Assembly: GCF_015493435.1 (NCBI RefSeq)
Contig: NZ_WGDD01000060.1
Location: 1 to 59,346 of the forward strand
Direction of reading: 5' to 3'
Source of the DNA: Sulfurovum sp.
GTDB taxonomy: Bacteria; Campylobacterota; Campylobacteria; Campylobacterales; Sulfurovaceae
DNA: 59,346 nucleotides
Shown: piece by piece, positions 15,184 to 47,199 of the stretch
Position numbering within the stretch: the stretch's first letter is position 1
Layout of the letters: each line of letters opens with the position of its first letter
Notes under the pieces: generated by a model
What the model was told of the DNA's origin: nothing
Seen by the model: the letters and a program-made list of their open reading frames with translations, nothing else
Databases searched by the model: none
Position numbers and translations under genes: made by a program

Positions 15184-16452
15184 CTAAAGTGCCTGATAAG
15201 CAATATCAGTTCGGCACTGTTTTCCGGCAAAATGAACCTGGCCCACAAGCATATAGGCACGTTTCTGCGCTTCCGCTATGCTGTTGCCCAAACCGACACA
15301 GACAAGTACACGTCCTCCGGTCGCATAGAGTTTACCCTCTTCATCCCGGCTTACACCGGCATAAGAAATATGCGCATTGCCTTCAAGATCAGGATGATGA
15401 ATATCATCAACTATGATCTCCGCAGGTTCTGACGATTTATAGGGATAATCTTTGCTTGCCATCACAACACCTACAGCATATTTGTCATAAAACTCGATCT
15501 TCGCGGAAGGAAGATCACCCGTCGCCGCTTTGTAAAAAAGTTCACTTGCCGGCGACTTGAGCAGCGGCATCAACTCTTCACATTCCGGATCACCGAAACG
15601 TACATTGTATTCAAGTATGATCGGCTCGCCTTTGACCACCATGACACCAATGAAAAGTACACCGGTAAACGGCATCCCTTCTTCTTCCATCCCTTTGAGC
15701 GTCGGCTTGATAACGCGTTCGTCCAGTTTTGCATAAATCTCATCATTGACCAACGGTGTCGGTGCGTAGGCTCCCATGCCGCCTGTATTGGGGCCTTCAT
15801 CATTGTTCAGCAGTCTTTTGTGGTCTTGTGCCGCAGGCAGTACCACATAATCTTTTCCGTCACAGATCGCAAAGACGGAGAGTTCATAACCGTCAAGAAA
15901 TTCTTCGACCACAATGGAAGTCCCTGCTTCACCGAAAGAGTTTCCCGAAAGCATTTCACCTGCTGCCTTTTTCGCCTCATCACGGCTTTGCGCGATAATG
16001 ACCCCTTTGCCGCCGCAGAGCCCGTCGGCTTTCACGACGATAGGTGCGTTAAGGGTATTGATGAATTTATATGCTTCTTCGAGCAGATCTGTTTCTATGT
16101 ATCTCGCGGTAGGTACATTGTGGCGGGCAAGAAAATTTTTCATAAAGATCTTGGAACCTTCCAGCTGTGCCGCTTTGGCCGTAGGGCCGAAGATCGTCAA
16201 AGCCCGGGCCTTGAATACATCGACGATCCCTTCAACCAAAGGAGCTTCCGGACCGACAATCGTCAGGTCCACCCCCTTGGCTTCTACAAAATCCGCCAGT
16301 GCATTGAAATCACTGATACCCAGGTTCTCGCCCAGCATATCTGTTGCACCGTTTCCGGGAGCGAAGTAGATCTTATCTACATTTTCGTCTTTTTGAAGTG
16401 CCAAACCGATAGAGTACTCTCTACCTCCAGAACCTATGATCAATACATCCAT
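15184..16452 (-). CDS. purD: Phosphoribosylamine--glycine ligase
   Basis: 422 residues, the normal length. The N-terminal GSGGREYSIGLAL, the ATP-grasp core (KIFMKNFLARHNVPTARY, VVKADGLCGGKGV), the QDHKRLLNNDEGPNTGGMGAY motif and the Mg-binding EYNVRFGDPE are all present. PurD makes GAR in the second step of purine synthesis. GGAGAAAATC precedes the ATG. The upstream DNA holds a 92-bp palindrome and, beyond it, a 6S RNA candidate in the same direction, so readthrough from the 6S promoter may add to purD expression, as happens at 6S-ygfA in other bacteria. Confidence 0.97.
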   Translation of the reverse strand: MDVLIIGSGGREYSIGLALQKDENVDKIYFAPGNGATDMLGENLGISDFNALADFVEAKGVDLTIVGPEAPLVEGIVDVFKARALTIFGPTAKAAQLEGSKIFMKNFLARHNVPTARYIETDLLEEAYKFINTLNAPIVVKADGLCGGKGVIIAQSRDEAKKAAGEMLSGNSFGEAGTSIVVEEFLDGYELSVFAICDGKDYVVLPAAQDHKRLLNNDEGPNTGGMGAYAPTPLVNDEIYAKLDERVIKPTLKGMEEEGMPFTGVLFIGVMVVKGEPIILEYNVRFGDPECEELMPLLKSPASELFYKAATGDLPSAKIEFYDKYAVGVVMASKDYPYKSSEPAEIIVDDIHHPDLEGNAHISYAGVSRDEEGKLYATGGRVLVCVGLGNSIAEAQKRAYMLVGQVHFAGKQCRTDIAYQAL

Positions 16453-16611: not shown

Positions 16612-16799
16612 AAGGGCCCGAGTGGCCGTTCTGTTAAAGTCGGCCCTAAAAAGCCAACGGTGCAGGAGAGAGCAGGCCTTTAGGAGGCAATTTCTCGCGG
16701 GTTGCCCCGCTCGAACGAAAATGCCTACACACCAGTCTGCTACATGTCCCACTAAGATTAATGTTGGACCCCATATACAGTTATCGAACCACTCAGGTT
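16612..16799 (-). ncRNA. ssrS: 6S RNA candidate
   Basis: A minus-strand RNA of about 185-190 bases fits the 6S plan. The ends pair (CCTGAGTGG at 16797-16789 with CCACTCGGG at 16625-16617, one G-U), a central bubble carries a side hairpin on each strand (GTCC...GGGAC and GTTGGC...GCCGAC), and a long apical arm ends in GCGGG-GCAA-CCCGC. A TATAAT box (16806-16811) sets the start near 16799. 6S binds RNA polymerase with the vegetative sigma factor, mimicking an open promoter. Position upstream of a purine gene also fits. It was not scored against a covariance model. Confidence 0.7.
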
Positions 16800-38911: not shown

Positions 38912-39054
38912 AGGGTACCTTCTTCACCCCCAACATCTTCGTTAGGTGTGTATAATGATGGCAGTCTGAGATGCAATCGCAGCATTAAAAAATCTTATTT
39001 AATATTTGTTTTATCTTAGCTATGATATTCTATATATATAAAGTATTGCATTTA

Positions 39055-39122
39055 AGAAAAGGCCTAACTTGCTATAAAGCAAGGACGGAAAGCCACGGGT
39101 CTTAAAAGAGACAGCCTGATTG
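39055..39122 (+). promoter_or_regulatory. GEMM-I (cyclic dinucleotide) riboswitch aptamer
   Basis: The conserved core is plain: AAGGCCTAAC, a hairpin CTTGC-TATAAA-GCAAG, then GGACGGAAAGCCACGGGTCT, a second stem closed by AAAAGAGAC and AGCCTGATTG. This follows the GEMM-I layout (GGGCAAACC, P2 hairpin, GACGCAAAGCCACGGGCCT, P3, AGCCAGGTTGCCG). It differs at GACGGAAAG, where GACGCAAAG is usual, and in the left core. GEMM-I binds c-di-GMP; a variant class (GEMM-Ib) binds 3',3'-cGAMP. It lies 225 bases upstream of the giant surface-protein gene. Confidence 0.85.
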
Positions 39123-39123
39123 T

Positions 39124-39198
39124 AAGTTATAAAACTTATCACATCCTTGTCCGATGTAGATACGAATTTTACCCTGTCGTACAGATGGGGTTTTAAAG
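39124..39198 (+). promoter_or_regulatory. Probable expression platform of the riboswitch
   Basis: Between aptamer and first gene lie GTAAGTT-ATAA-AACTTAT (39122-39140), ACATC-7-GATGT (39141-39157), and ACC-CTGT-CGT-ACAG-AT-GGGG followed by TTTT (39170-39194), which looks like an intrinsic terminator. TCCTTG at 39144-39149 could also pair with CAAGGA inside the aptamer (39080-39085), a possible switching helix. The helices are seen; which state is ON is not known. Confidence 0.45.
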
Positions 39199-39203
39199 GT
39201 GTC

Positions 39204-39350
39204 ATGATGAAAACATTAAATTCTTGTTGGGGGTATTTGCTCCTCTCGATGCTTCTACTCACTTTTTTCAAAAACAGCATTAAGCACTATCGCTATCGCC
39301 TAATTCCCATAACTCTAACTCTATTCTCAGGAAAAAGGAGTTGTTTATGA
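39204..39350 (+). CDS. Possible 48-residue leader membrane peptide
   Basis: A short frame (MMKTLNSCWG, then YLLLSMLLLTFF and a basic tail) begins after AAAGGTG and ends in TGA that overlaps the ATG of the giant gene (ATGA). The overlap and ribosome site argue for translation and coupling. Against it, the peptide has no known relatives that I recognise, and its second half shares space with the next gene's ribosome site. Confidence 0.35.
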   Translation: MMKTLNSCWGYLLLSMLLLTFFKNSIKHYRYRLIPITLTLFSGKRSCL

Positions 39351-42300
39351 AAAGATTCATTATTTTATTGAAAATTACTTGTTTATTTATATTGAATTAT
39401 ACGAATATATACGCATGGAATAGGTTTGACGGCGGTAATATTGAAATTGATGTAAACACTAATTTTTCCCTTATTTATGGGGGAAGTGGTACTTCCGTAA
39501 AAGGAGATTTCGTCGCAACAGGCAACACAATTATGGATGGCGATAAAAGTACCAACTATTTTGCAGGATCAACCCCTCACATGCTGCACCAAGATTCCGA
39601 AATCGATGCGCTGGGAACAAGTTCTAAAAACAGGAATTCTTCTTCTGCCACACTTTCTCTGCCAAGTTATGTTACCAAAGACCATATCGTGTGGGCAGGT
39701 CTTTTCTGGCAGGGCCAGATACATGATAGTGCAAACAATACAAATCAAGTAAACAGCGATGTCAGAGGTTGGAATACCGTTCATATGAAAACACCTGATG
39801 GAACGGTACATGAGATATCTGTTCCTCCCAGCGGAAACAACAATCCAACACATACCGCTTACCATTATGCCTATCAAAGAGGTGGCAAATACCGTTTTTT
39901 CTATAGTGCCTATGCTGATGTTACGCAAATAATAAAAAATGGCGGATATGACAACAGCCATAAAACTTTTACTGTAGGAAATATCAACTCTACCGATAGA
40001 GCAGATAGTGGAACATGGATGTACTTCAGCCATATCAATGAAGCCAATGGGGGACAATGGTATGGCAGTAACTTACGTATGGGACATTTTGGCGGCTGGA
40101 GCCTCGTAGTGGTATATGATGTAGATCAGCAGACCATGAATGACCATTCTGATGTTAAATATAAGAATATCTCTATTTATAACGGATTTGACCAGTTTCT
40201 CACATGGGGAGGAAGAAGAGATGTACCCTTTGAAACCTCGATCCATCTCGAAGGTTTCAGAACACCTTCAAATGGTGTTATTTCAAGTAAACTTCTCTTC
40301 TTCGGCGGGGGAGGAGACTACGGAATGGCCAGTGATACCCTCGCTATTGAAGACGGGGGAAATCGTGGTTCCTATGAAGATTTGACAAATAACTGGAATA
40401 GAGGTACACAAAAATTCAATGGAACCTTTACCAACATGAACACTCTGATCAATCCTTCCAAGTCATATTATCAGGGGATAGATCTTGATATTTTCGATAC
40501 TTCAAACATGATGGCCCATGCCCAAACAGATACCAATATCAAATTCGGTGTTGTCTATAATGCTTCCAAGCGTTACTGTGACCAGGTCTTTCCACAGGTA
40601 CTTGCATTCTCCACGGAACTCTATATGCCTAAACTGTGTTATGACTATACAGTAAGAATGGGAGATTACATAAGGATACCGTCAAAGAACCGGGAGATCA
40701 ATGCTTCTATCATATCGGATGAGCTGCCGCTCAATCTAAAAATACTGTTGAGAAGCCAGGAAGCCGACTTTGATCTTCTTGATGCACGCATGCAAATTGA
40801 CTTCACCCCTTTAAGCGGGTCACTGGGGATCTTGCGCAAACCAAACACTGCGGAGGTTTCACCACCAAATATCAATGCCTACATACCGGTTGACTCCAAT
40901 GCAAGCGGCTTCTTCCCTATTGGCCGTGGTATTACGCCGCACAGTGCAGAACCCGGGGGTAAAATTTATCCTCTGGAAAGTAATTACGCAAAGACATCCT
41001 ATACATATACGCATACCAATGATCGTATTGATGCAAAATTTGATATTGTGCTTCAAACGGAAATCAATTTTGCGGGGAACACCAGGGTACCCTACAGGCT
41101 TTCAACACAGGGTACAATTGAAAAATGCCCCACCAATGCAGCCTATGATCCTATTTGGAATATATTTAATGCCGAAAGAACAGACAGTTATAAGTATGAC
41201 CCCGTTAATGAAGCATACCTGCGCTATCCACTCTATACCCAGATTGCAGGCAAGGACTACGCTGTAGATATTGTCAGATATCAGGAAGGAGATCTCAGCA
41301 ATCCGTTCCAAGACAAGAACAATACTGTCGTAGAAGTCGAACTCATTGATGCCGGCAGTTTTGACAATAACAGTTCCGTCGGCTTTGACAGTATTTGTGA
41401 AGAGCCTGCCGCACTGGGAAGTACCAACCACGGTACATTTATAAACTTTTACAATACTGACCGTATCGAGATCAATATTCCTGACGATATTGATGGATAT
41501 GACAACGAGATCGCTCTTGAAAATGCTGCCTTCAGAATGTGGATATTGACCCATGAAGTCAATGCGACTACGGGAGAAAGAGAAATTATACACCACAACT
41601 GTACTTCTCTGAATGGAAGCTGTTTTCAAAACCTGTATGCCAATACGGTCTCAGCGTATGACACAACTTCTTTATGCAGCAATGACTGTTCATCCGGCAA
41701 TGAGCTGGAATGCTATATGTGTATGCGAAAATATTTTGCGACACCTGTCTGTTCGAGAGACAATTTCTCGGTACGCCCTGACGGCTTTAGAATTGCCATC
41801 AGTGACAACAATGAAAGCACTTCGTCCCTACCGGTACCGGTAATGCTCATACAAAATAACAGTGAGGCAAAAGATTATGCTTCTTCCGTCAAACCATTTG
41901 AGCTTGCAGCCGGCTACAGGTATCCTTTTGAAGTCAATGCTACCTTGTATCAGACCGGCTTGAAATCGACCGGATACTACAACATAGACTTTTTTGCCAG
42001 ACAAAACATAACACTCATTCCGAATGTGAGTAACAAATCCGGCGTACTGAGTGCTATGGAATTTACGCAGCAGAGTGATCCGTGTATCGACAAAACCCAT
42101 CGAAGTCTTGGGTTTAGAATGATCAACAGTGAAATTGACGACAGCGTTACACTCCCGGATGTTCTGCCGCCAAGCGGCCAGTACCCCCAGATCAATGTCG
42201 GTACATACAAGCTGTGGATCGTAGATGCGAACTGGACAGAAGTCGACCAGGCATACTCTGCCAGAAAACCTGTATTTAACAACCGCCCTACCAATGACTG

Positions 42301-43549
42301 TATCGATTCCGATGCCAACCATATTGTCAATGACGAGGGCAAGATCGGATGTCTGACTTCATCGACCATTAAAGAAGATAATTCCAATTACTTAGATCTC
42401 TACCTTGACTTTAACCCTTATCGGTTTGACCTTTCAGGTATTACGCTGAAGAACAATCCCGATATAGACCAAAGCTGGCTCTATTTTAATAATCTCGCGA
42501 ATGATAATAATGATATCGGTATGGCCGCCAATGTCAAGGGTATTATCAGTGCTGTAGACAGAGACAATAATATCACGACAAACTTTACTGCCGGGTGTGC
42601 AGCTAAAGATGTTGAACTGTGGATAGAAGGGAACGTGACTGCCGACAGTGTTACACCCGACTCTAACATTTCTGCGGGAGTCTCCACTGAGGCAAACGGG
42701 ATGTCGCTGCAGCAAACACTGGTCGATATTGGTAATTCTGACGGCAGTGATGTGGAAACAGACAACAACCTGACACTTGAAGCAGACAATTTTACTTCCG
42801 TAGAAGAAGGCAATGCAACGGTAGACCTTTATATCAACTTCGATAAAAACTACACAACCCCTTCCAATCCTGTACAGGTATTTTTCAGTGATGTGAATGC
42901 TTCTTCTCCGGGTGCATGGTCACATGCACAAATGAAACAGCATTATATACCCGACGGAAATCAGCAGCTGGACAGCAACCGTATCTTCCTTTATGCCAAA
43001 GTTGCACCTAAGCTGGGTGATGAATATATCATTACCTACGACAATAACTATACTACTTTCCTGAGGGTTGATGTTTACTGTAACGACACTGCTATGATCA
43101 CATGTTATGACTTACAGCATGTCGATGATACAAACACCAGCAGAAATATTCTGGGAGTGCAGGAGGAACTGCACAATACAGGACCGGCTGCCTGGTATCG
43201 TATGGAAAACCATATAGCAGCATTAGACGGCAATGTAACAAGGCTCAAAGCTGATCATAACGGCATAATAGAACTGCCTATCAATACCGATATTACATTT
43301 GATTCCAACGGGTCAACATCTGACCTGACATTTACATATCCGTACGGACAGCCGCGACCGGGTAATTTTGTCATTACCATAACCCCTGATGCATGGTTGA
43401 AATATAACCCGGACCCTGCCAAGAAAGGCTTACCTGAATTTTCTATACACTATCTCCTGCAGGGGCTCAAGTGGAAGGGTGAAGGCAGAACCGGGCATGT
43501 GATAGGAACCGATCCGTATTCAGGAGAAAACAAGAGGCTGAACTGGTGA
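39347..43549 (+). CDS. Giant secreted, cysteine-rich surface protein (MshQ-like position)
   Basis: 1400 residues from the ATG at 39347 (AAGGAG 6 bases upstream). A signal peptide (1-23, ending NIYA) is followed by a module with VWAGLFWQGQ, YSAYADVTQII and FGGWSLVVVYD (about 110-260), a pattern I associate with large bacterial surface proteins that carry repeat domains. A cysteine-dense stretch (about 740-810, with CYMCMRKY) leads to SRDNFSVRPDGF, which resembles the DUF6701 signature of MshQ. The rest is beta-rich with many Asp/Asn. No membrane anchor or sortase motif is seen. It is followed by four prepilin genes, so a pilus-tip or adhesin role is inferred. Confidence 0.6.
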   Translation: MKRFIILLKITCLFILNYTNIYAWNRFDGGNIEIDVNTNFSLIYGGSGTSVKGDFVATGNTIMDGDKSTNYFAGSTPHMLHQDSEIDALGTSSKNRNSSSATLSLPSYVTKDHIVWAGLFWQGQIHDSANNTNQVNSDVRGWNTVHMKTPDGTVHEISVPPSGNNNPTHTAYHYAYQRGGKYRFFYSAYADVTQIIKNGGYDNSHKTFTVGNINSTDRADSGTWMYFSHINEANGGQWYGSNLRMGHFGGWSLVVVYDVDQQTMNDHSDVKYKNISIYNGFDQFLTWGGRRDVPFETSIHLEGFRTPSNGVISSKLLFFGGGGDYGMASDTLAIEDGGNRGSYEDLTNNWNRGTQKFNGTFTNMNTLINPSKSYYQGIDLDIFDTSNMMAHAQTDTNIKFGVVYNASKRYCDQVFPQVLAFSTELYMPKLCYDYTVRMGDYIRIPSKNREINASIISDELPLNLKILLRSQEADFDLLDARMQIDFTPLSGSLGILRKPNTAEVSPPNINAYIPVDSNASGFFPIGRGITPHSAEPGGKIYPLESNYAKTSYTYTHTNDRIDAKFDIVLQTEINFAGNTRVPYRLSTQGTIEKCPTNAAYDPIWNIFNAERTDSYKYDPVNEAYLRYPLYTQIAGKDYAVDIVRYQEGDLSNPFQDKNNTVVEVELIDAGSFDNNSSVGFDSICEEPAALGSTNHGTFINFYNTDRIEINIPDDIDGYDNEIALENAAFRMWILTHEVNATTGEREIIHHNCTSLNGSCFQNLYANTVSAYDTTSLCSNDCSSGNELECYMCMRKYFATPVCSRDNFSVRPDGFRIAISDNNESTSSLPVPVMLIQNNSEAKDYASSVKPFELAAGYRYPFEVNATLYQTGLKSTGYYNIDFFARQNITLIPNVSNKSGVLSAMEFTQQSDPCIDKTHRSLGFRMINSEIDDSVTLPDVLPPSGQYPQINVGTYKLWIVDANWTEVDQAYSARKPVFNNRPTNDCIDSDANHIVNDEGKIGCLTSSTIKEDNSNYLDLYLDFNPYRFDLSGITLKNNPDIDQSWLYFNNLANDNNDIGMAANVKGIISAVDRDNNITTNFTAGCAAKDVELWIEGNVTADSVTPDSNISAGVSTEANGMSLQQTLVDIGNSDGSDVETDNNLTLEADNFTSVEEGNATVDLYINFDKNYTTPSNPVQVFFSDVNASSPGAWSHAQMKQHYIPDGNQQLDSNRIFLYAKVAPKLGDEYIITYDNNYTTFLRVDVYCNDTAMITCYDLQHVDDTNTSRNILGVQEELHNTGPAAWYRMENHIAALDGNVTRLKADHNGIIELPINTDITFDSNGSTSDLTFTYPYGQPRPGNFVITITPDAWLKYNPDPAKKGLPEFSIHYLLQGLKWKGEGRTGHVIGTDPYSGENKRLNW

Positions 43550-44322
43550 TACATATGTGCAATGCTTTTAAAAGACGCCTACAAAGACCTGCTGTTGCTA
43601 TGATTGAACTCATCTTTGCCATTACTATCATGGGAATTGTACTTATGAGTGCACCTATGCTGGTGAGCCGTTCCGTACAGAGCAGTTTTACCGCACTGCA
43701 GCAGGAATCAATAGCAGCAGCTTCTGCCCAAATATCTATGATAATGACTGCGGCATGGGACCATAACGATGCCAATACTACGATCGGTATGCCTGTTCTT
43801 CATACCGATAGCGGCACAGGGGCAGTATCTCCGCTTATTGTAAACTGTACCACAAATGCTCCTGTCGGCGTAAGCAGCAGGAGCGGGCGATTTTGTAAAA
43901 ATACCCGAATGCCTTCCTATTGGTGGGCAAGTCCTATTGCCCTTGACAGTGCTTATGAAGACATCGATGACTTCAATGGCCTGGAGGGAAATGTCACTCT
44001 GTATAACAGTGAATCCTATGATTCATCCCGAGGTGACTATATTGACAAGAACGTCAAAATAGCAGTAAGCGTGTCTTATGGAGATGATGTACCGAGAAAT
44101 GCAGGGGGAGGCCTCTCTGGCGGCTATAAGAAAAACACCACTTTCTCCAATCCGTTCAGGACTTCCACTACCGCTACAACAAGCAATATAAAACTGATCA
44201 GTGTTACGCTTACTTCAAACAATCCATCGAGTGAATTAAGCAATAAAAATATTACGTTAAGCGCATTTATGTGCAATATCGGTGCCCCTGAAGATCTTAT
44301 AAACAACAAGGCAGGATTATGA
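43546..44322 (+). CDS. Prepilin-like protein, MshD/PilV type
   Basis: 258 residues. It starts at GTG 43546, overlapping the stop of the giant gene (GTGA); AGAGG is 9 bases upstream, whereas the ATG at 43555 would be too far. A basic leader (NAFKRRLQRPA) is cut after Ala to leave VAMIELIFAITIMGI, with the conserved Glu at +5 and a hydrophobic N-helix. The rest is a polar globular domain with two short cysteine-bearing turns. Minor prepilins of this class initiate pilus assembly and are processed by PilD/GspO. It overlaps the next gene by 4 bases. Confidence 0.8.
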   Translation: MIHMCNAFKRRLQRPAVAMIELIFAITIMGIVLMSAPMLVSRSVQSSFTALQQESIAAASAQISMIMTAAWDHNDANTTIGMPVLHTDSGTGAVSPLIVNCTTNAPVGVSSRSGRFCKNTRMPSYWWASPIALDSAYEDIDDFNGLEGNVTLYNSESYDSSRGDYIDKNVKIAVSVSYGDDVPRNAGGGLSGGYKKNTTFSNPFRTSTTATTSNIKLISVTLTSNNPSSELSNKNITLSAFMCNIGAPEDLINNKAGL

Positions 44323-45329
44323 ATATAAAAATGTTTCAAAACAGAAATGCCTTTTCTCTCATAGAATTGATTTTAGTCATCGTTATTTTGGGTATAGTCG
44401 GTTCCATCGGATCTTCTATTATTTCTGATGTATTCAAAAACTATATTTTACAGCGTGCCACACAGCGTGCCAGCCTGAAAACGGAACTTGCCGCTCAGCA
44501 GATAGCCAATTTTCTGAGTTATAGAATTCCGCACACAACATTGGCAAGAAATCCAAACGACCTTACTGATTCTATTCTGGTAACCGAGGTTGATCCGTCT
44601 CTTGGCGGAGATGAAGACAACATACATACCGTACTGGAATGGATTGGTGCTGACAACGACAGCTTTACGGCATCGAGAATTCCGGGATGGAACGGTTTTT
44701 GCGATATAGCCGATTCCAACCAAACTTATATTAAAACGCCCGGATCTAATTTGAACCTGGCACGGAGCGTCATTAAAAACCTTTCCAATAATAGAATTAA
44801 CTTATTTAATACTACTACTCCCAATGTTGCTATCTTTTTCAGAGATGTGCTTTATACCAAAAACCCGGATAAAATTTACGATGTAAAGAGCTGTATGGGA
44901 ATGACCCCCGGTAGTGATACAAGCTGTATTTCAACCGTACGAAGAACACCGACAGGAACAAATGCCTACAAAAAACAGACACTGAAATTTGTCAGTGGTT
45001 CTGCAACACAAAAAGTGCTTGCAGAGCACTATAAACTTGCCTGGACCGCCTATGCCATCGTGCCTTTCAGCCACAACAGCAATACGCCCTGTGCCAGGGG
45101 TGAATCTCACTGTGACCTGAAACTGTTTTACAATTATCAGCCCTGGGACGGAGACACGCTGGACTTGGGAGCCAATTCAAACATTCCCCATGCCACCCTC
45201 ATTACCAATGTAACAGTATTTAAATTTGCCGAGCTTGGCAGTACACTTAGGTTCAAACTCTGCGCACAGGAAAATATAGGCGGAGACTACAACGTTACTA
45301 TCTGTAAAGAAAAGGCGATAATACTATGA
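44319..45329 (+). CDS. Prepilin-like protein, MshO/PilW/GspJ type
   Basis: 336 residues. The leader MNIKMFQNRNA precedes FSLIELILVIVILGIVGSI, with Glu at +5 and Ala at -1. Its length and order in the operon fit the large minor pilins MshO, PilW or GspJ. The C-terminal part has six cysteines (SCMG, SCIST, PCARGESHC, LCAQE, ICKEK), possibly paired. It overlaps both neighbours by 4 bases (ATGA), a sign of strictly coupled translation. It has no role outside the pilus that I can suggest. Confidence 0.8.
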   Translation: MNIKMFQNRNAFSLIELILVIVILGIVGSIGSSIISDVFKNYILQRATQRASLKTELAAQQIANFLSYRIPHTTLARNPNDLTDSILVTEVDPSLGGDEDNIHTVLEWIGADNDSFTASRIPGWNGFCDIADSNQTYIKTPGSNLNLARSVIKNLSNNRINLFNTTTPNVAIFFRDVLYTKNPDKIYDVKSCMGMTPGSDTSCISTVRRTPTGTNAYKKQTLKFVSGSATQKVLAEHYKLAWTAYAIVPFSHNSNTPCARGESHCDLKLFYNYQPWDGDTLDLGANSNIPHATLITNVTVFKFAELGSTLRFKLCAQENIGGDYNVTICKEKAIIL

Positions 45330-45904
45330 GAAAAGCATTTTCAATGATCACAGCCATTTTTGTCATTGTCATGATGGCTTCTGTAGCCATGCTTGTTTTT
45401 AACATGTCCGGCAAGGTCACCAAGTCCACCTCATTTCAGTACAGGGAAGAACAAGCTGCACTTCTTGCCAAGAGTTACACTGAACTTGCCGTACTTGCCG
45501 TCATCAATCATGACCGGAACAGTACCGGAGTATGCATACAAAACATCAATGGTGTAGTCAAAGGTATCACACCGGGAGGGGGAATACCATCAGGAATAAG
45601 CAGCACGAACGGAGGAGGATATTTAGTACAGACACGTATATATTATATCGGGAATGATCTAAACAAAACAACAAACATAGGAAGCTCATACTGGCTCAAT
45701 AAAACCATGCCTCTCAAAACAAACTATAATACCACCACTCCACCACTGGATGATGCAGTTGCGGCGATTATAGTAGATGTTTCTGTCAGATATAAAGACC
45801 CCGATGTTGTAGAAGCCTACACTCTGTCCCACGGTGGTTCAGCCCCATCATCAAGGCAAATCCCCTGGGTAACCTATCACCGCAGGACACTTCAAAAAAT
45901 ATGA
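45326..45904 (+). CDS. Prepilin-like protein without Glu5, MshP/PilX/GspK type
   Basis: 192 residues. The leader is very short (MRKA) and cleavage would leave FSMITAIFVIVMMASVAML. Position +5 is Thr, not Glu. Loss of Glu5 is the mark of GspK, PilX and MshP, which sit at the very tip of the pseudopilus or pilus where no subunit lies above them. The globular part has a Gly-rich loop (TPGGGIPSGISSTNGGGY). It overlaps its upstream neighbour by 4 bases and probably forms the tip complex with the other minor pilins. Confidence 0.75.
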   Translation: MRKAFSMITAIFVIVMMASVAMLVFNMSGKVTKSTSFQYREEQAALLAKSYTELAVLAVINHDRNSTGVCIQNINGVVKGITPGGGIPSGISSTNGGGYLVQTRIYYIGNDLNKTTNIGSSYWLNKTMPLKTNYNTTTPPLDDAVAAIIVDVSVRYKDPDVVEAYTLSHGGSAPSSRQIPWVTYHRRTLQKI

Positions 45905-45918
45905 AAAAAGGATACTCT

Positions 45919-46560
45919 ATGCGTCGAAATGCGTTCACACTGATTGAACTCATCTTTGTTATTATTATTATTGGCATTTTAGCAATGATGGCATTACCAA
46001 GAATGAGCCGTGATATTCGACAGGAAGCGGCAGACAACATTCTTTCTGCCATACGCTTTACCAAACAGATGGCATTGATAGATGATAAAACTTCTACCTA
46101 TGGCCATTGGCAGAAAAAATTATGGGCCATACGCTTTACCGATGCCGCAGATTATCAAAATACTTTTTATACCATCGCTACCGATGACAATAATAATACG
46201 GTCATCAGTAAAAATGAAGCTGCTATTGACCCCACAAACGGAAAATATCTCTATAACAGCAGCGGAAGTTTTGCTTCGCGTGCAAGTGATGAAAGCCCCA
46301 ATATCTTCATAGGACATAAGTACGGAATAAACCGTATTACATTCGGCGGCGGCTGTGCTTCTGACCAAAAGCATATAGCATTTGATCAGCTTGGTCGTCC
46401 TTTTAACGGTATAGGCAATGCAAAAAATAATTATGCAAAATACATACATTCAGACTGTACGATAACGTTTGGTTTTGCAGACAGCAGCGTAGAAGATTTG
46501 AACATTGTCATTGAAAAACAAACCGGTCATGCCTACATTGTTGGTCAGCCAAACTCTTAA
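45919..46560 (+). CDS. Prepilin-like protein, MshC/GspH type
   Basis: 213 residues from the ATG at 45919, which follows AAAAAAGGATACTCT. An earlier ATG (45901) overlaps the upstream stop but has no ribosome site. The leader MRRNA is cut to leave FTLIELIFVIIIIGILAMMALPRM with Glu at +5. The length and a globular domain ending in VEDLNIVIEKQTGHAYIVGQ fit GspH/FimT/MshC. It ends the riboswitch-led operon; a 9-bp direct repeat (46583-46600, TTAAGTTAC twice) follows before hpf. Confidence 0.8.
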   Translation: MRRNAFTLIELIFVIIIIGILAMMALPRMSRDIRQEAADNILSAIRFTKQMALIDDKTSTYGHWQKKLWAIRFTDAADYQNTFYTIATDDNNNTVISKNEAAIDPTNGKYLYNSSGSFASRASDESPNIFIGHKYGINRITFGGGCASDQKHIAFDQLGRPFNGIGNAKNNYAKYIHSDCTITFGFADSSVEDLNIVIEKQTGHAYIVGQPNS

Positions 46561-46665
46561 AACGGATTCCATTTACCCTTCATTAAGTTACTTAAGTTAC
46601 AATTAAGCATGGAGAATAAAGAGCCTCTCCGGCTTTCTCCGTATCTTACATTTAAAGGATTTATC

Positions 46666-47199
46666 ATGAATAAAAGTATTACAGGAAGACATTTTGAACT
46701 GACCGACGCTATTAAAGCGTATGCAGATACTCTGCTGGATGGTCTTAAAAAATATCATCTCGATATTACATCAGCCAATATCGTTATTTCAGCAGACGAA
46801 AAGAACGGAAAAAAAGGTTTTGCTGTAGAGTTCATTGTAAATCTGAAAGACAAGAACACCATTGTCATCACACAGGTAGACAAAGATGTCTATGCTGCAC
46901 TGGATCTTGCGAGCGAAAGAGTGAAAAAGAGCCTCAGAAGACATAAAGACAAGATCAAAGATCACCGGATCATGAGCTTCAAAGACATGGGGGAAGAAGC
47001 AGAAGCTGTTTCAGAAATAGCAACAGAAGACGTTGAGATCGTACCTATGGACCTTGAACTGCACAAACCGCTTGACTTCGACGAAGCCATCGATGCCCTC
47101 CGAGAAGAGAAAAAAAGACAATTCATCGTCTTTAACGACTATGACGGCCATATGAGAGTCATGTATAAAAGAGCCGACGGCAAATTCGGCCTCTATTAA
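46666..47199 (+). CDS. hpf: Ribosome hibernation promoting factor, long form
   Basis: 177 residues from the ATG at 46666 (AAAGGAT upstream; the earlier in-frame ATG at 46609 is rejected). The N-terminal domain begins NKSITGRHFELTDAIKAYAD and binds the 30S decoding region. The C-terminal domain (about 120-177, KPLDFDEAIDALREEKKRQFIVFNDY... GKFGLY) dimerises and joins two ribosomes into 100S particles. This long form is usual outside the Gammaproteobacteria. A palindromic repeat element begins 4 bases after its stop. Confidence 0.93.
   Translation: MNKSITGRHFELTDAIKAYADTLLDGLKKYHLDITSANIVISADEKNGKKGFAVEFIVNLKDKNTIVITQVDKDVYAALDLASERVKKSLRRHKDKIKDHRIMSFKDMGEEAEAVSEIATEDVEIVPMDLELHKPLDFDEAIDALREEKKRQFIVFNDYDGHMRVMYKRADGKFGLY

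Follow-up and report, generated by a model that had tools for sequence, protein, structure and literature searches.

A giant MshQ-related protein of Sulfurovum, encoded behind a c-di-GMP riboswitch and ahead of four prepilins, is a probable tip adhesin of an MSHA-type pilus

In Vibrio cholerae, mshQ encodes a putative adhesin of the mannose-sensitive haemagglutinin (MSHA) pilus, and cells that lose it show less MSHA piliation at their surface (PMC7096442); MshE binds cyclic di-GMP (c-di-GMP) via two 24-residue motifs, RLG...Q (PMC5013675). In Myxococcus, PilY1 and four minor pilins prime the pilus and sit at its tip, and each cluster encodes one set (PMC7541494). Here, we describe a related arrangement in Sulfurovum sp. 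on contig C60 (NZ_WGDD01000060.1), the 59,346-nucleotide stretch of DNA that we analyzed and call the window, which belongs to a 2.16 Mb assembly (GCF_015493435.1) of 61 contigs that is 99.6% complete. The gene in question encodes a 1400-residue surface protein (the giant) and lies between a c-di-GMP-I riboswitch and four prepilin genes. We propose that the giant, which is related to MshQ, probably primes the assembly of a retractable MSHA-type type IV pilus and acts as its tip adhesin, because of the prepilin linkage of this protein, its variable adhesin-type N-terminus and constant C-terminus, the DUF6701 domain found in its relatives, the MSHA machine of the genome and the riboswitch.

The giant gene is the first of a tight run, in which four prepilin genes (43546-46560) follow with reading frames that overlap by four bases; its place at the head of a prepilin operon, which an earlier note on this DNA had claimed, is thereby confirmed, and the linkage to prepilins is conserved across the order. 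Of 70 giants for which a named record includes 2.6 kb or more of downstream sequence, 64 are followed by prepilins 1, 2 and 3 in this order, with a 7-base overlap in 38. Six deviate: in one, prepilin 2 is doubled, and four others are the upstream member of two neighbouring giants. Prepilin 4 stands in many relatives either after prepilins 1-3 or divergently upstream of the giant. The prepilins were assigned to the MshD/O/P/C or PilV/W/X/FimU types from the look of their sequences and their order. Prepilin 3 is without Glu5, which is likewise missing from PilX and GspK (PMC7541494).

The giant starts at the ATG at 39347, with the ribosome-binding site AAAAAGGAG just 5' of it and an in-frame TTG at 39341, and stops at 43549. 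Its signal peptide is MKRFIILLKITCLFILNYTNIYA, with cleavage before WN, and a scan of the protein for anchors revealed no lipobox, no LPXTG/sortase motif and no hydrophobic stretch past residue 40. The open reading frame (ORF) together with this hydrophobicity and motif scan bears out the length, the signal peptide and the missing anchor given in the earlier note. BLAST with the whole giant found homologues in 78 of 150 related genomes, the closest in the same-genus genome G073, and a profile of the C-terminal half found relatives in 108 of the 150 genomes of the order (84 of the 106 of good quality). A contig scan with single-sequence peptide patterns, which were drawn from variable places, found no relatives; an alignment scan found them. 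Family members are about 900 to more than 4000 residues long. The C-terminal half is the constant part and bears most of the 16 positions that are invariant among 30 order-wide homologues. The N-terminal region is swapped among relatives, in which bacterial Ig, putative Ig, cadherin-like, Calx-beta, PKD, F5/8 C and DUF11 domains occur; judged by these domain families, the exchanged parts are a stock of predicted adhesin domains.

The constant half ties the family to DUF6701 (PF20419), which we take to be a domain of MshQ. Homologues of the family in 29 of the 150 genomes pass the curated cut-off of 27 bits, the best with 81.4 bits (E 2.7e-23), while in the window giant and the whole of its own genome PF20419 is below detection. 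We therefore regard the giant as a remote DUF6701 relative, reached by sequence comparison via intermediates, and not as a member by the Pfam rule. The best match, in L101, begins at about SRDNFAIRP and aligns with residues ~803-1400 of the window giant. The MshQ/DUF6701-like motif of the earlier note is thus real, though only by way of the PF20419 matches in the giants of relatives. Ahead of the corresponding CSRDNFSVRP stands a cysteine cluster: residues 777-802 hold five cysteines, a number reached within 26 residues in one of 2000 shuffles of the protein. Among 61 homologues, C781, C789, C792 and C802 are at least 90% conserved, and C789, C792, C802, R804, D805, N806, F807, R810 and P811 are invariant, so the cysteine-dense section described before the motif holds up as well. 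The PilY1 C-terminal domain (Neisseria_PilC) has no Pfam or NCBIfam match in the giant and is not among the families of the 30 homologues. A search for DUF6701 proteins on plasmids found none.

Two or more giants lie close together in L139, L178, L187, L189 and G066:C145, the upstream one often without prepilins of its own. Such neighbours are possibly alternative tips.

The N-terminal half of the window giant contains a module marked by GWSLVVVYD (residues 250-258), whose W251 is kept in at least 90% of the 30-homologue set. Residues 24-451 match a DUF11 protein of Thermus thermophilus pTT27 (tblastn, E 3e-15) and surface proteins of Deinococcus grandis (E values of all these matches 3e-15 to 9e-15), and the module thus occurs outside the phylum, in surface proteins of Thermus, Deinococcus and Priestia, as the earlier note had supposed of other giant surface proteins. 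The Thermus thermophilus homologue scores 27.1 bits against DUF3344 (PF11824; cut-off 27.2), and a Pfam search of the window giant with this family gave no match. For a cluster that overlaps DUF3344, the published prediction is a fibrillar-adhesin domain whose function is ambiguous (PMC9210967). No annotated pilin gene was found beside the Thermus and Deinococcus module genes examined; therefore, the module seems to be a general surface part and the C-terminal half the pilin-associated part. The same observation favors another explanation, in which the giant belongs to the outer surface or biofilm matrix in general and has only its operon and c-di-GMP switch in common with the pilins, without physical contact between the proteins. 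So does the position of other c-di-GMP-I riboswitches of the genus, ahead of genes for unrelated surface proteins. However, the order-wide linkage of prepilins to the conserved C-terminal half, with overlapping frames, is far tighter than co-regulation needs, and we consider a mere matrix protein very unlikely.

Structure prediction agrees with a modular surface protein. The AlphaFold model of residues 24-595 is nearly all beta (predicted local distance difference test (pLDDT) 87.2, predicted template modelling score (pTM) 0.87), and that of residues 590-1400 (pLDDT 82.7, pTM 0.78) consists of beta domains and the helical cysteine-rich section. In PDB fold searches, residues 426-588 resemble streptococcal shaft pilins, SdrG and integrin Ig-like domains (Z 8-9), and the C-terminus resembles Ig-like domains of many proteins. 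All these matches are to generic Ig-like or beta-sandwich folds, of single domains, with Z up to 9.1 and low TM or Z. The GWSLVVVYD module proper had no clear PDB relative in the fold search, which does not mean that its fold is new. Of the lectin or adhesin fold that the earlier note had suggested looking for, a lectin fold was not found, and the adhesin and pilin matches are to generic Ig-like sandwiches. No enzyme fold, which that note had named as evidence against its view, convincingly covers any domain.

The genome encodes the machine that such a tip would need. Contig C16 carries, consecutively, genes for a PilM/MshI-position protein, a PilO-like protein, a small protein, an MshL secretin (TIGR02519, 252.0 bits; cut-off 250.2), an MshM-like AAA ATPase, an MshN-like TPR protein, an MshEN-T2SSE ATPase and a GspF/MshG-type protein. 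The MshE-type assembly ATPase scores 68.7 bits for MshEN (PF05157) and 439.7 bits for PF00437, and an MshEN-bearing assembly ATPase was matched in 148 of the 150 genomes. Two PilT-like ATPases are encoded on contigs C54 and C57, one prepilin peptidase on C12, and short major-pilin-like prepilins on C22 and C46. In Sulfurovum indicum, mshL is up-regulated on elemental sulfur (PMC10045233). As a separate observation, a prepilin gene on C22 (L200:7508-8974) is directly followed by a gene for a GGDEF protein, and other major-pilin-like genes adjoin.

A complete type II secretion system (T2SS) is encoded on contig C2, with its own pseudopilins beside its genes. By elimination, the window prepilins therefore most likely serve the MSHA machine. 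The T2SS also brings in another explanation, that the prepilins build a short pseudopilus which pushes the giant through a secretin as a T2SS-like substrate, to be released or stuck in the matrix without becoming part of a pilus. The giant has no anchor, the four prepilins resemble a GspH/I/J/K set in which prepilin 3 is without Glu5, and PilY1 has been termed an analogue of T2SS substrates (PMC7541494). Against these points, the T2SS has pseudopilins already, and the DUF6701 relatives and the MSHA machine point to a pilus; secretion of this kind is unlikely in our judgement. To our knowledge, moreover, a dedicated minor-prepilin set for each substrate gene is unusual for a T2SS. Transformation pili, too, have tip proteins that work with minor pilins, and the giant might accordingly be the tip of a pilus for DNA uptake rather than adhesion. 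We give this hardly any credence, since the N-terminal modules of the relatives are adhesin-type domains, the machine scores as MSHA type and c-di-GMP regulation suits attachment.

Upstream of the giant, the aptamer scores 47.8 bits for Rfam RF01051, above the gathering threshold of 35, and 72.4 bits with our own covariance model, which was built from 17 riboswitches of relatives and that of the window. We searched 121 sequences (1.79 Mb) with this model, namely the window and 120 giant loci. All 23 matches of at least 42 bits lie just upstream of a giant gene on the same strand, and the single other match is noise (12.9 bits). In a set of 18 aptamers (17 giant-associated and the second aptamer of the window's own genome), standard pairs fill 94% of the pair cells, and both partners vary in 12 of the 20 pairs, a level that none of 500 shuffles reached. 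The earlier note had linked the making of this protein to cyclic dinucleotides; the riboswitch is indeed present by Rfam and recurs before the same gene in relatives, and the gating itself is predicted from these sequences. The reading of that note is supported at every point that could be probed computationally. The genome encodes 14 GGDEF domains.

Further riboswitches of this class were seen elsewhere. Congeners (L071-L100, genomes G001-G077) have up to 21 c-di-GMP-I riboswitches each, many before genes for surface proteins, lipoproteins, a TolC-like protein and response regulators, which represents a large predicted RNA-based c-di-GMP regulon. The second c-di-GMP-I riboswitch of the window's own genome (L119:5006-5085, contig C26) lies 24 nt before the gene of a 192-residue protein without a Pfam match. 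The aptamers upstream of the giant in L153, L156 and L063 are changed at the conserved 3' end, like that of the window, and are possibly decaying or retuned.

Between the aptamer and the start codon, the words GATGTAGATACGAATTTTACCC ... AAAGGTGTC recur in many riboswitch-bearing relatives. In the window, this probable expression platform is followed by a 48-residue ORF whose start (39204 or 39207) lies 77 nt past the aptamer, and the giants of most relatives start about 66-94 nt past theirs. The encoded MMKTLNSCWGYLLLSMLLLTFFKN resembles MKIFNSFWTYMFFPMFLLAFFRN in the N-terminus of the giant of L160, and its TGA stop (39348-39350) overlaps the start of the window giant (ATGA) in a different frame. 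From these likenesses, the small ORF would be either a split extended signal peptide that is now translationally coupled, or the result of an indel in the gene or the assembly.

The other place where c-di-GMP might act is MshE. In the window's own genome, both MshEN motifs are degenerate (KLI...R and SFA...I), and those of congeners are of the same kind (30 loci, own included). Of 20 further genomes from the order, 19 likewise have a non-canonical first motif. Since MshE of the order has mostly lost the c-di-GMP motif, the riboswitch is the visible c-di-GMP input to the pilus. We also considered that riboswitch gain compensated for motif loss, and rejected it: the 19 non-canonical genomes include some without a listed riboswitch match, so the loss is old and wider than the riboswitch, and no swap was seen. 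The only one of the 20 further MshE proteins with a canonical first motif is L250 (G094), RIGDRLIHEGLITQDQLMQALKRQ.

Several observations weigh against a riboswitch-controlled tip adhesin. Direct searches of Pfam, NCBIfam and PDB sequences with the window giant gave zero matches, and PDB fold searches recognised no ligand-binding fold in it. The MSHA machine lies on another contig than the giant, and the genome has a T2SS too, so that the pairing is by elimination. Numbering aptamer positions from what we take to be the Vc2 structure, the window aptamer keeps the fold and a G at presumed G20; at presumed C92, which pairs with the ligand, it has U, and its loop is AUAA, not GNRA. The aptamers of most relatives keep C at presumed C92 and a GNRA loop. 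By this comparison, the window aptamer may be weaker, retuned or decaying, and its activity is uncertain. Finally, after removal of duplicates, the riboswitch precedes only 17 of the 83 distinct giants for which 300 nt or more upstream are available, the window's included; it is therefore not required for the basic role of the protein.

Table 1. Position and basis of the features of the giant locus (window coordinates).
Feature	Position	Strand	Basis
c-di-GMP-I (GEMM-I) riboswitch aptamer	39052..39127	+	Rfam RF01051; own covariance model; covariation
Conserved leader, probable expression platform	39128..39203	+	Same words in relatives
48-residue leader ORF	39204..39350	+	Resembles N-terminus of relatives' giants, other frame
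Giant MshQ-like surface protein	39347..43549	+	ORF, 1400 residues; homologues by BLAST and C-terminal profile
Signal peptide, residues 1-23	39347..39415	+	Sequence; sole strongly hydrophobic stretch
GWSLVVVYD module, residues 24-425, all beta, DUF3344-related	39416..40621	+	AlphaFold; tblastn
Ig-like beta-sandwich, residues 426-588	40622..41110	+	VIA-align Z ~9
Cysteine-rich, partly helical section, residues 752-802	41600..41752	+	Conserved cysteines; helices in AlphaFold model
SRDNFSVRP motif and C-terminal DUF6701-related core, residues 803-1400	41753..43546	+	PF20419 matches in relatives; AlphaFold
Prepilin 1 (PilV/MshD-like position), GTG 43546 or ATG 43555	43546..44322	+	N-terminus AMIELIFAI; conserved directly 3' of giants
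Prepilin 2 (PilW/MshO-like position)	44319..45329	+	PF07963 E 2e-5; conserved
Prepilin 3, without Glu5 (PilX/GspK/MshP-like position)	45326..45904	+	N-terminus FSMITAIFVI; conserved
Prepilin 4 (FimT/GspH/MshC-like)	45901..46560	+	PF07963 E 7e-6; GspH model E 7e-6; placement

Elsewhere in the window, a gene for an S30AE ribosome hibernation factor (46609-47199) directly follows the prepilin run, and a purD RNA motif (16616-16743, minus strand, 96.1 bits) lies upstream of a purD-like gene (15184-16452).

As the tip adhesin that we favor, the giant would leave the cytoplasm by Sec export. Its conserved C-terminal half would dock on the minor-pilin complex, with prepilin 3, which is without Glu5, on top, and the docked protein would prime the pilus and pass through the MshL secretin at the pilus tip. 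The modules of the N-terminal part (the GWSLVVVYD/DUF3344-like and Ig-like ones in the window, with Ig, cadherin, Calx-beta and F5/8C domains as well in relatives) would then reach out and bind a surface, for which a mineral, a sulfur particle, the matrix or a neighbouring cell are candidates. Binding of c-di-GMP to the riboswitch would alter translation or transcription of the giant and the prepilins behind it, so that pili would receive a giant tip once the cell is committed to attaching. The first target of the switch in the window would be the small leader ORF whose stop overlaps the giant start. As a tentative and rather doubtful extension, Sulfurovum-type Campylobacterota could place the c-di-GMP decision to extend sticky pili in the mRNA of the tip and not at the ATPase, such that the machine is always runnable and the messenger picks among exchangeable tips, each with a minor-pilin set to itself. 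Such a choice would be open to genomes with several giants.

Sulfurovum and its relatives, which are sulfur-oxidising bacteria, abound as primary producers at vents and seeps and in sulfidic caves, and must grip minerals and sulfur particles. The giant is a concrete candidate for their attachment organ and its control. With it, MshQ-type pilus tips would be represented in a second major lineage, and DUF6701 and DUF3344, two unexplained domains, would gain a role that can be tested. It would also be a natural case of a riboswitch gating a pilus tip, among bacteria in which MshE has for the most part lost the known c-di-GMP motif.

Among described systems, the DUF3344/DUF11 surface proteins of Thermus and Deinococcus have the GWSLVVVYD beta module in common with the giant, whereas the two that were scanned have no DUF6701 match and no prepilin genes annotated beside them. 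A c-di-GMP riboswitch upstream of an attachment gene is also present at Bacillus cap (PMC4933901) and in Clostridioides difficile (PMC6200980); here, in contrast, the switch precedes a pilus-tip-type protein and minor pilins, in Campylobacterota. MshQ of the MSHA pili of Vibrio, Shewanella and Aeromonas is likewise large, exported and encoded beside the minor prepilins of an MSHA-type machine, and the C-terminal half of the giant is related to its presumed domain as described above. However, the giant is too distant in sequence for the Pfam model, has a DUF3344-like module in its N-terminal half and a c-di-GMP riboswitch in front, and, by the MSHA gene order that we assume, its gene opens the prepilin run rather than closing it and is separated from the genes of the machine. 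PilY1 with FimU, PilV, PilW and PilX, in Pseudomonas and Myxococcus, forms the same unit of one giant exported protein and four minor prepilins. Unlike PilY1, the giant lacks Neisseria_PilC and vWA domains by Pfam and has a DUF6701-like C-terminus; like it, the giant family has a variable N-terminus and a conserved C-terminus, and PilY1 has a priming and tip role (PMC7541494). By analogy, the best reading is that the giant works like PilY1 and MshQ.

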